Source of the DNA: Phycisphaeraceae bacterium | GTDB taxonomy: Bacteria > Planctomycetota > Phycisphaerae > Phycisphaerales > SM1A02 | DNA: 64,000 nt | NCBI GenBank assembly: GCA_019636735.1 | Contig: JAHBWY010000006.1 | Location: 124,001 to 188,000, forward strand | Reading direction: 5' to 3' | In this document: one piece after another, positions 38,831 through 52,012 of the stretch | Layout: each line of letters begins with the position of its first letter | Numbering within the stretch: the first letter of the stretch is position 1 | Translations under genes and position numbers: made by a program | The notes under the pieces: generated by a model | Database searches by the model: none | Seen by the model: the letters and a program-made list of their open reading frames with translations, nothing else | Told to the model about the DNA's origin: nothing

Positions 38831-39000
38831 CTGCCCAAAGTCGCCAACATTCCCTTCCAATCCCGCGGCTGGACGCTAGTATTCCTGAGTCAGCGGATGA
38901 GCGTGACGAGGCCAAGGCCCGTTTCGCCCCGCTCGTGCTGCGCCACATCGCGATGATCGCGAAGGTCAGGCCCGGGCAGTTTCCTCGGGAGACCGTCCCT

Positions 39001-40071
39001 ATGCGTCGTGCACATTCATCTCGTCGACCGCTCGGCTTCACGCTGACCGAGCTCCTCGTCGCCATCGGCATCATCGCCCTTCTCATCGGGATCCTGCTGC
39101 CGGCGCTCGGAGCAATCTCGCAGCGATCGAAGAAGGCTGCGACCCAAGCGCTCATGCAGCAGTTCGCTGATGCGTGCAGCCTCTTCCAGCAGCAGGTCGG
39201 CTACCTGCCCGGGGTCATTCCCGAGGATGTCCTCGCCTTCGATGCCGCCCAGAATGGCGGTGTCGCGCGAATCAGTGGCATGGAGAATGCGCTGCTCCAC
39301 CTGCTTGGCGGTGGCGTGCGTTCCGACGATGTCACTGCGGCGGAGTGGGCAAGCCTGACCTCTGGCAACGGATGGGTGACGGTTTCCTTCCAGCGACCAC
39401 AGGGCGGCACACTCGATCTCAAGGTCAACCTGAACGAGATGGTCTCAGGTCGCGGACCTCGGATCGCAGGCAAGCAGTACGACCGCTTCTTCAATGCCAA
39501 GCCAACGGAACTGGTGGCGGTGCAGGGTCAGTTGGGTGAGCTTGATTTCAATCCGAACGCGCCTGGTCTCCAAGGTCTTCCCGACCTCGTGGACGCTTGG
39601 GGCCAGCCGATCATTTATGTCCGAGCGGCGCGCGGAACCGGGCCGCTGGTCGGCGATGTGCTGAGTGCCACAGCGCCAGCGCAGTTCGGTCGCTACTCGA
39701 TGACCCCGTACACCAACTCGACCTTCCTCGGCGAGTTGGGCCGCGATCAGACGGATCTGAGCCTGCTTTCCGGCAACAACGCCACCGGCAATGATGGCGG
39801 CGCGGGAACCGGCAACACCTTCTTCGCTCAAGTCATCCGGCATGCGGGTATGGGTAACCCCTCGCAGCCGGTGACGAGCGGAGTCGCACGAGGTCGTTTC
39901 GTGGTCATCAGCGCCGGACGCGATGGAATCTACTTCTCACGGACCGATGGACCGGGCAGCACCTCGACTCCGGTCACGAACATCATCACCAGCGACTTCA
40001 CCAACGGCGGCAACTTCGGCCCGACGGTGGTCGAGTCCTATGACGACATCCGCATCTTCGGCGGAAGCTGA
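39001..40071 (+). CDS. Prepilin-type (type II pseudopilin) protein
   Basis: 356 residues from ATG 39001. The class III signal is clear: a basic lead RRAHSSRRPLG then F-T-L-T-E-L-L-V-A-I-G-I-I with cleavage after Gly and the conserved Glu5. One hydrophobic helix follows and then a soluble domain of about 300 residues with Gly/Asn-rich parts. Such proteins form short pseudopili of type II secretion-like systems or are processed surface proteins in planctomycetes. ATG 38935 and 38953 are in-frame alternatives, but they would put extra residues before the signal. No secretion machinery genes are adjacent. A strong hairpin follows the stop. Confidence 0.88.
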   Translation: MRRAHSSRRPLGFTLTELLVAIGIIALLIGILLPALGAISQRSKKAATQALMQQFADACSLFQQQVGYLPGVIPEDVLAFDAAQNGGVARISGMENALLHLLGGGVRSDDVTAAEWASLTSGNGWVTVSFQRPQGGTLDLKVNLNEMVSGRGPRIAGKQYDRFFNAKPTELVAVQGQLGELDFNPNAPGLQGLPDLVDAWGQPIIYVRAARGTGPLVGDVLSATAPAQFGRYSMTPYTNSTFLGELGRDQTDLSLLSGNNATGNDGGAGTGNTFFAQVIRHAGMGNPSQPVTSGVARGRFVVISAGRDGIYFSRTDGPGSTSTPVTNIITSDFTNGGNFGPTVVESYDDIRIFGGS

Positions 40072-49741: not shown

Positions 49742-49978
49742 GGTCGAGATGCCGGGAGCAGCGAGTGCTCCCGGCGGCATGGCTCCCGAATCGGATCGGC
49801 AGCCATGTGAGGGAAGGCGGTGCAAGACCGCCGCGGACGCGCCGCCGTGAAGGGTGCGTCGGAGCCGAGGAATCGGCCTGACGCGCGTCCCGCCATGAGG
49901 GCCACTGGTCGCCGTGCAATGCGAGCGATCGGGAAGGCAGGCGGGGCTCACCCCTGAGCCGGAAGACCTGTCTCGACC
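49742..49978 (+). promoter_or_regulatory. Cobalamin (B12) riboswitch
   Basis: The element is bounded by a perfect 8-bp P1: GGTCGAGA (49742-49749) pairs with TCTCGACC (49971-49978). The conserved core AGGGAAGGCGGTGCAAGACC lies at about 49810-49829, followed by CGCGG and CGCCGTGA. The 3' part has GCCACTGG, GGGAAGGC, and the B12-box-like GAGCCGGAAGACCTG (about 49956-49970). These are the diagnostic positions of the cobalamin riboswitch class that binds adenosylcobalamin or related corrinoids in its family. A gene for a secreted dockerin-tailed protein lies downstream on the same strand. Confidence 0.93.
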
Positions 49979-50246
49979 ATCGGCCGCGCCCTCGCGCAAT
50001 GGGCTCACGGCACGACGCTCCTTCATGGAGTCCGCCATGTCCGCGATTGATCTCTTCCTGTTCGGCGACCACGGGTCCGTTCGGCCGCGGCCACTCCGCA
50101 TCGGGCCGCGACACACCGCGAGCCACCACACCGAAGTGCCCAGCACACCTGCCGGCCTCGCTGGGGCGCGGGTGGTCGAGACGAGGTCGAATGCGATGAC
50201 TTCTCCCAAGGTCCGTCGGGCCGCCGTGCGATGGACCAGCGACCGT
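49979..50246 (+). other. Long leader between riboswitch and first gene
   Basis: About 270 bases. The frame of the downstream gene stays open through this region, but it begins without a signal peptide (MESAMSAIDLFLFGDHG) and looks less coding. It may hold the expression platform: GGTCC...GGACC (about 50210-50236) can pair near the likely start codons, although no clear terminator T-run is visible. Confidence 0.35.
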
Positions 50247-50270
50247 GTGACTGTGTCGCGCCATCTGGCC

Positions 50271-51200
50271 ATGGCCAAGATCATCTGTTCGGCGCTGCTC
50301 GGCGCAACCTCGCTCGCGGCAAGTTCAGGTGAAACCCCTCCAGCACTCCACGCCACCTCGTGGGTCTCCTACACGCCCGGCGCAGGCGTGCCGCTCTCAT
50401 ACCAGAATCCAAACTCGGCGCTGGGGCTTCCGACTCGATACAGCGGCTTCGGCATCGATCCCGGCGTCGTCAGCCCGTTCCATCCGGCGTTCCTTCCGAG
50501 CGAGGTGGTTTCGATCGGGCCGGGTGGTTCGCTCGTGCTCGCCTTCGATCGCGATGTCATCGACCATCCGGCGCACCCCTTCGGCATCGACCTGATCGTC
50601 TTCGGCAACAGCTTCATGGCGGACCTCTCCTACCCCGAGGGCGTCTGCGGCGGGATCTTCTCCGAGGGTGGCTTCATCGATGTGAGCGCCGACGGCGTCG
50701 TCTGGCACACCAATCCCGGAGTTGATGCCGACGGTCCCTTCCCGACCCTCGGCTATCTCGACTCGGGTCCCTACGACCTCGTGGCGGGCGCGATTCCGAG
50801 TGACTTCCACCGCCCGGTGAATCCCGCGCACCTCGCGCTCATGACTCCGGGCACCACCTACGCACAACTGCTGGCGCTCTACAACGGTTCGGGAGGTGGC
50901 GCTGGCGTCGATCTCGCCGCGGTGGGCCTCTCAAGCGCTCGCTTCGTTCGGATTCGCGTGCCAGTCGGCCACTGCTGCACTGTTGAGATCGATGCGGTCA
51001 CACTCGTGCGGCCCGAGACCGTGCCGCTCACGGGAGACCTCAATAGTGACGGCCTCGTGAATGGCGCCGACCTTGCACTCCTGCTCGGCGTCTGGGGCTC
51101 GCCCGGCTCCCTGCCCGGAGGTGGAAGCGCCGATCTCAACAACGACGGTGTGGTCGACGGCGCCGACCTCGCGATCTTGCTCGGAGCGTGGAGTGCATGA
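50271..51200 (+). CDS. Secreted surface protein with dockerin-like tail, riboswitch controlled
   Basis: 309 residues from ATG 50271 with signal peptide MAKIICSALLGATSLAAS; a GTG at 50247 is an alternative. The body includes WVSYTPGAGVPLSYQNPNSA, FLPSEVVSIGPGGSLVLAFD, FGIDLIVFGNSFMAD and FIDVSADGVVWHT, a beta-rich layout resembling surface proteins of PEP-CTERM and related sorting classes. Two dockerin-like repeats end the protein (DLNSDGLVNGADLALLLGVW and DLNNDGVVDGADLAILLGAW). The stop overlaps the pseudopilin start. A cobalamin riboswitch precedes it. A role in corrinoid capture at the surface is an inference from the riboswitch alone. Confidence 0.8.
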   Translation: MAKIICSALLGATSLAASSGETPPALHATSWVSYTPGAGVPLSYQNPNSALGLPTRYSGFGIDPGVVSPFHPAFLPSEVVSIGPGGSLVLAFDRDVIDHPAHPFGIDLIVFGNSFMADLSYPEGVCGGIFSEGGFIDVSADGVVWHTNPGVDADGPFPTLGYLDSGPYDLVAGAIPSDFHRPVNPAHLALMTPGTTYAQLLALYNGSGGGAGVDLAAVGLSSARFVRIRVPVGHCCTVEIDAVTLVRPETVPLTGDLNSDGLVNGADLALLLGVWGSPGSLPGGGSADLNNDGVVDGADLAILLGAWSA

Positions 51201-52012
51201 TGCCGTCGCACGACTCACGGCGCTTCGGCGTCACCATCATTGAACTGCTCGTCACGCTGGGCGTGGTCACGCTGCTGGTCGCGCTCCTCATGCCCGGGCT
51301 CGCCCTCGTTCGACGGGAGTCCCGATCGCAGGAGAACCTCTCCAATCTCCGCCAGCTTGTGATCGGCGCGTCGGGCTACGCGAATGTGTCGCGCGAATGG
51401 CTCCCCCCGGCGGTGCTCTTCTTCGCCAAGGGTGCATCGATCAAGACCCGCGGCTGGGACTACGAGGAACAGGGGGGAGCGTTCTCCCCGGGAGTCATCT
51501 GGGCCTTTGTCGGCGATGGTCGCATTTTCCAAAGCCCGGATCTTCCTCCTCCGGAGCGCCTCGCGAGCGGCGTGACGGGCATCGAACCCTTCACGGGCTA
51601 CAACTACAACACGACCTATCTGGGAAGCGAGGGCGCTCTGCCCGGCGTGAGCGCCGACGGCCAGATGCTCGACGGCTGGGCGAACGCTCGACTGGGCGCT
51701 CGCCCCGCGCAGGTGCGCCGACCGGATTCGACCGCGTGTTTCGGCGAAGGTGGCTGGAAGGATGGCCCCAACCGGTTCATGCGAGCGCCGGGGAACTCGG
51801 TGGAGTTCAATCTCGGCACGGTCTACGCAGGTGGACAGGCTTTTCGAGGGCGAGGCGGCACACATGTCGCGTGGCTCGACGGTCACGCGAGTCGGGTGAG
51901 CGAACCGCGCGAAGGCATGCATGCCGCTTCGAACGCGTGGCTGCTCACTTCGCTCATGGACTTTCCGAGGAATGGCTTCCTGAGCGACGACGACTCGGCG
52001 TACGCCCCGTGA
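51197..52012 (+). CDS. Prepilin-type protein with H-X9-DG-like motif, riboswitch controlled
   Basis: 271 residues from ATG 51197, whose ATGA overlaps the preceding stop; GTG 51188 is an alternative. The class III signal is FGVTIIELLVTLGVVTLLVALLMPGL, cleaved before V-T-I-I-E-L in the usual G/F position with Glu5. The mature part ends with GRGGTHVAWLDGHASRVSEP, which resembles the H-X9-DG processing-associated motif of planctomycete pseudopilins. Since the upstream gene and this gene overlap, both are likely expressed from the riboswitch leader. It is not accompanied by type II secretion genes. Confidence 0.85.
   Translation: MMPSHDSRRFGVTIIELLVTLGVVTLLVALLMPGLALVRRESRSQENLSNLRQLVIGASGYANVSREWLPPAVLFFAKGASIKTRGWDYEEQGGAFSPGVIWAFVGDGRIFQSPDLPPPERLASGVTGIEPFTGYNYNTTYLGSEGALPGVSADGQMLDGWANARLGARPAQVRRPDSTACFGEGGWKDGPNRFMRAPGNSVEFNLGTVYAGGQAFRGRGGTHVAWLDGHASRVSEPREGMHAASNAWLLTSLMDFPRNGFLSDDDSAYAP

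Follow-up and report, generated by a model that had tools for sequence, protein, structure and literature searches.

A locus in a planctomycete genome very probably constitutes a B12-repressed operon for secreted corrinoid capture, in which a BtuH-type binder is paired with a dedicated pseudopilin. It lies in a 64,000-nucleotide stretch of contig JAHBWY010000006.1 from a Phycisphaeraceae bacterium (the window, to which the coordinates below refer; all features of the locus are on the + strand). The pseudopilin gene stands where Bacteroides has BtuB in a riboswitch-controlled capture locus of the BtuH type. The initial annotation had suggested a corrinoid-responsive surface capture system that contained no known B12 gene. 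The first part of this proposal is strongly supported by the BtuH-type fold, the conserved gene order, and the co-occurrence of DUF4465 and transcobalamin-beta-like proteins in relatives; the second part fails, because the gene under the riboswitch is of the BtuH type both by fold and by sequence profile.

The cobalamin riboswitch

A search with cmscan gave a match to the cobalamin riboswitch family RF00174 at 49810-49969 (+), with 41.4 bits against a gathering threshold of 31.5 (E 5e-7), and this was the single match in the whole 3.43 Mb draft assembly. The flanking P1 arms, GGTCGAGA (49742-49749) and TCTCGACC (49971-49978), form 8 bp of perfect complementarity and extend the aptamer to 49742-49978, as the initial annotation had described it. 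The score is just 10 bits above the threshold and the match spans model positions 45-169, as a chance hit or a decayed element might; such an origin is nonetheless extremely improbable, since scores reach 93 bits at the same place in relatives and the core does not vary among 14 aligned loci.

Directly 3' of P1 is a putative P13 hairpin (49988-50004, GCCC-TCGCGCAAT-GGGC), which is likely to serve as the expression platform. Its loop sequence CGCG is invariant in 14/14 aligned loci, and is self-complementary to a second CGCG at 49838-49841, within a segment that is also invariant in 14/14 aligned loci (GGACGCGCC) and would form the L5 side of a kissing loop. No intrinsic terminator was found in a search near the riboswitch, and its absence, together with the invariant CGCG pair, fits translational control through such a kissing loop. 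A script located an exact repeat of the P1 5' arm sequence GGTCGAGA at 50174-50181, adjoining a Shine-Dalgarno-like GAGG (50183-50186) ahead of the ATG at 50196. This repeat could pair with the P1 3' arm as an alternative.

The first gene encodes a BtuH-type secreted protein

The first gene (50196-51200) encodes a BtuH-like secreted protein with a signal sequence, a domain of the corrinoid-binding type, and a dockerin tail. Its start codon is uncertain, the candidates being 50037 (GGAG 6 nt upstream), 50196 (preceded by GAGG) and 50271 (at the onset of the hydrophobic signal sequence). The leader, considered unusually long in the initial annotation, is indeed long in this species, but this is not general, the median distance from aptamer match to protein match in relatives being 163 nt. 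The tail is a type I dockerin with two Ca-binding-type repeats (51033-51179, residues 280-328; PF00404, Dockerin_1, 34.5 bits against a cut-off of 22.9), which bears out the initial description of a secreted, dockerin-tailed product. The same tail is present on many other proteins of this genome. A scan across genome contigs returned mostly dockerin tails, with the exception of L050, a relative's locus.

Searches of Pfam and NCBIfam returned no family model for the main domain (50346-51011); Pfam gave only the dockerin and a weak EF-hand match, and no match to DUF4465 (PF14717). An AlphaFold2 model of the protein, built from 30 orthologues, had a mean pLDDT of 91.9. In VIA-align comparisons, the best fold matches in the PDB were the BtuH-type domain of BtuG1 (8blw_B 390-660, Z 13.2) and the B12-binding domain of BtuH2 (7biz_B 315-593, Z 12.8), with 147-150 residues aligned, and Foldseek gave an E-value of 5.9e-6. 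A sequence profile of divergent relatives (A4), with the dockerin tail trimmed as was needed for the match, reached 8blw_B (E 8e-7) and 7biz_A (E 0.0075), and a profile from same-family orthologues alone missed BtuH among the PDB sequences. Membership of the BtuH-type jelly-roll fold is thus supported by the predicted structure, and from this kinship in fold and profile with B12-binding members in Bacteroides we infer that the window protein binds B12.

Alternatively, the jelly-roll domain may bind another ligand, for example a glycan, with its control by B12 being part of a broader physiological response. The next fold matches after the two B12 proteins were PAPP-A (Z 9.3) and CBM32-like jelly rolls (Z 8-9), and several contact residues of BtuH2 are not conserved. 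In BtuH2, residues Asn399-Phe401 contact the phosphate and the lower ligand (PMC8941943). BtuH2 residues were placed on the assumption that their numbering differs by 100 from the PDB sequence index, under which Gln333, Tyr510 and Trp511 also fall on matching letters. Asn399 then aligned with the Asn of an FGN[SA]F segment, an Asn that is invariant in the same-family alignment, and Phe401 was mostly kept. Gln333 is kept in loci L129, L131 and L132 and not in the window protein; the contacts Tyr510, Trp511 and Trp577 fall beyond the confidently aligned core and cannot be aligned. Against a different ligand, the two best fold matches are B12 binders that stand well above the remainder, and each other riboswitch target in the bacterial family also has the fold of a B12 binder. 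We therefore regard a non-corrinoid ligand as improbable.

Conservation of the locus in the bacterial family

To describe the occurrence of the locus, 101 genomes of the same bacterial family were surveyed, and 91 orthologues of the BtuH-like gene were present in 90 of them. The three-part order of riboswitch, surface protein and pseudopilin that had been read in the window is conserved: 84/91 orthologues are preceded on their own strand by a riboswitch at a distance of no more than 1.5 kb, and a full-length relative of the pseudopilin lies directly downstream at 57 of the 58 same-family loci with a readable downstream region. Among the 75 genomes with a single riboswitch, it sits at the BtuH-like locus in 72.

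The 101 genomes contain 97 cobalamin riboswitches above threshold, 83 at the BtuH-like locus and 14 elsewhere, and none of the 97 is directly ahead of a transporter or synthesis gene. The remaining 14 each stand immediately before a gene of a second family, of short secreted proteins with a PEP-CTERM-like tail. This family had no sequence match in Pfam or the PDB; in its model (pLDDT 85.5) the fold is that of the beta domain found in transcobalamin, intrinsic factor and haptocorrin (Z 11.7-12.8, unrelated folds at or below 6.5). Several sub-threshold riboswitch matches precede the same short family and are thus probably real as well. Second riboswitches ahead of this transcobalamin-beta-like protein with its PEP-CTERM-like tail were seen in other genomes of the family at L063-L082.

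The genome itself encodes a full B12-dependent methionine synthase, MetH, along with other B12-binding domains, and a search for CbiC found none. A FecCD permease gene adjoins that of a PF01497 binding protein, a putative transporter for which corrinoid is a possible substrate. The initial annotation had advised looking for BtuB/TonB genes nearby, and none is present; a search of the 33-contig draft (97.3% complete) found no TonB plug (PF07715) anywhere in the genome, a result from one domain and a draft assembly that cannot prove the absence of every receptor. Accordingly, no BtuB route is visible. The plug was likewise not found in 70/101 family genomes; 62 of these are among the 90 that carry the BtuH-like locus, an overlap counted by hand from two tables. 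The genome with the window also encodes secretins, GspE/PilB-type ATPases and, with a score over its cut-off, a PilT-type ATPase.

Variants of the locus in relatives

Beyond the bacterial family, divergent BtuH-like genes were found in 56/392 genomes of the phylum, with a riboswitch at 14 of 19 loci examined. The locus L050:4218-7810 contains, in order, a riboswitch (113 bits), a DUF4465 gene with PEP-CTERM (E 1.2e-52), a BtuH-like gene with dockerin, and a pseudopilin gene. Since eight distantly related DUF4465 members have been shown to bind B12 (PMC13398666), the DUF4465 gene in this operon provides independent support for the B12 reading. In L120, L124-L126 and L128, a short transcobalamin-beta-like gene is followed by the BtuH-like gene and the pseudopilin gene, and in L121 and L122 the transcobalamin-beta-like and BtuH-like domains are fused in one protein.

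Other loci differ in their downstream genes. The BtuH-like gene occurs without a pseudopilin in L114-L119 and L127, and a PQQ-propeller-type gene lies downstream of it in L115, L117, L119 and L127. In L129-L132, a propeller-like gene is upstream of the BtuH-like gene, between it and the riboswitch (a riboswitch was seen in L132). This gene resembles BtuG by eye and may be its counterpart; a profile found no PDB relative, and it was left unclassified. A pseudopilin gene also follows BtuH-like genes that lack the dockerin tail, in L088 of G009 and in L130. The notion that the pseudopilin simply tracks the dockerin tail is contradicted by these two loci and by L114-L117.

The pseudopilin and its possible roles

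The second gene (51197-52012) encodes a type IV pseudopilin (DUF1559-like) and overlaps the first by four bases (ATGA), in agreement with the initial annotation. The N_methyl domain (PF07963) of the window protein scored 15.7, under the cut-off of 21.2. Among 12 members of its family, N_methyl was matched in 10 and DUF1559/SBP_bac_10 in 7 (E<=0.01). An H-X9-DG motif had been assigned to the protein; its histidine is replaced by Gly in the window (FRGRGGTHVAWLDG), and most relatives keep the His. The full-length subfamily is single-copy in the genome and limited to the B12 locus, and 14 other pilin-like genes of the genome match it at the N-terminus only.

Other prepilin-type genes were noted in the course of the analysis. 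One in the window (38935-40071) has a different C-terminal part and adjoins no dockerin partner. Elsewhere in the genome, at L184:2270-10053 and L189:1294-2911, dockerin-tailed secreted genes adjoin pseudopilin genes with no RF00174 match, which suggests a recurring module of secreted protein and pseudopilin.

Two roles were considered for the pseudopilin at the B12 locus. In the first, the operon does capture corrinoid, and the pseudopilin only aids export or anchoring of the dockerin-tailed protein, in the manner of type II secretion, with the corrinoid entering by an unrelated channel. Such neighborhoods occur at two other places in the genome: at C2:172-180 kb four genes with a dockerin tail lie ahead of a pseudopilin gene, and near C4:345 kb a further dockerin-tailed gene overlaps one. 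The pairing could thus be a general means of exporting or anchoring proteins, for which the GspE/PilB-type ATPases and secretins would be at hand. The single-copy subfamily specific to the B12 locus, and the presence of the pseudopilin behind the BtuH-like genes without dockerin in L088 and L130, weigh against this role while leaving room for export. We give it a substantial probability, if somewhat short of an even chance. That the pseudopilin follows these dockerin-less genes counts in favor of a link specific to B12.

In the second, the pseudopilin would form a retractable fiber. With the BtuH-like protein mounted on it, this fiber would bring corrinoid through a secretin into the periplasm and so take over the part of BtuB/TonB. 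The lack of detected TonB plugs in this genome and in most locus-bearing genomes, and the PilT-type ATPase, are consistent with such a fiber. Further support comes from other planctomycetes, in which pili-like fibers bind dextran and the size limit of porins is about 600 Da (PMC5394234), and for which a pilin "fishing rod" hypothesis of polysaccharide uptake has been proposed (PMC12078418). On the other hand, polymerization and surface exposure of the pseudopilin are assumptions of this reading, the plug domain is present in 28/90 locus-bearing genomes, and the f2-family relatives lack a pseudopilin. The retractable fiber is a tentative proposal and a somewhat doubtful one. Its generalization, that Phycisphaerae import B12 without BtuB/TonB by means of a riboswitch-controlled BtuH-type binder and a retractable pseudopilus that together cross the outer membrane, is rather unlikely.

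Proposed model

In our favored reading of the locus as a corrinoid-capture operon, scarcity of corrinoid would lead the riboswitch to permit expression, probably by the kissing-loop translational mechanism, and B12 would repress it. The product would be a secreted BtuH-type binder, held at the cell surface or released from it by way of the dockerin tail, and the dedicated type IV pseudopilin would be made along with it. The binder would capture corrinoid for a cell that has MetH and in which neither CbiC nor a TonB-dependent receptor was detected. Cooperating with the binder, the pseudopilin would either draw the corrinoid in by way of a secretin, following the fishing-rod model, or serve in the export or anchoring of the binder.

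Comparison with known systems

The closest known relatives are the surface lipoproteins BtuH and BtuG1 (BtuGH) of Bacteroides thetaiotaomicron, which share the domain fold and are detectably homologous by profile (PMC8941943, PMC10404256, PMC12751083). Control by a cobalamin riboswitch, a signal peptide, and the occurrence of several families of B12 binders in the same loci are also shared. BtuH of Bacteroides is a PKD-bearing lipoprotein; no lipobox or PKD domain was seen here, and a dockerin or PEP-CTERM tail is present instead. Part of the binding-site residues differ in the planctomycete protein, and in contrast to the Bacteroides loci no BtuB/TonB partner was found and a pseudopilin gene is in the operon. 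Proteins for B12 capture under riboswitch control have been known chiefly from Bacteroides of the gut; the locus adds a planctomycete family, in which every above-threshold cobalamin riboswitch detected serves a protein of the B12-capture type. Among the papers covered by a literature search, none dealt with cobalamin riboswitches with PEP-CTERM targets, with planctomycete BtuH, or with B12 uptake by pilins.

Two further families of B12-related proteins bear comparison. Members of DUF4465/BtuJ are likewise secreted B12 binders, and include one from Phycisphaerae, in Mucisphaera calidilacus (PMC12751083, PMC13398666). A DUF4465 gene is part of the L050 operon; unlike these proteins, the window protein does not match DUF4465, and genes for TonB or ABC transport lie close to many of the reported DUF4465 genes. 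The beta domain of transcobalamin and intrinsic factor provides the fold of the second riboswitch-controlled family, and is found fused to a BtuH-like domain in the two loci described above, though it is not encoded at the window locus. A bacterial transcobalamin-like SLBB clade has previously been noted in planctomycetes (PMC1796856).

The fishing-rod model (PMC5394234, PMC12078418) likewise invokes dedicated pilin-like proteins for carrying molecules that exceed the porin limit through the outer membrane. That model concerns polysaccharides in other planctomycetes, whereas a vitamin is the presumed ligand here, with a riboswitch for that vitamin in control of the gene. The locus offers a test case for such transport in planctomycetes, since B12 is a defined and easily labeled ligand with a growth phenotype, and the binder and the pseudopilin are encoded in one two-gene operon under B12 control.
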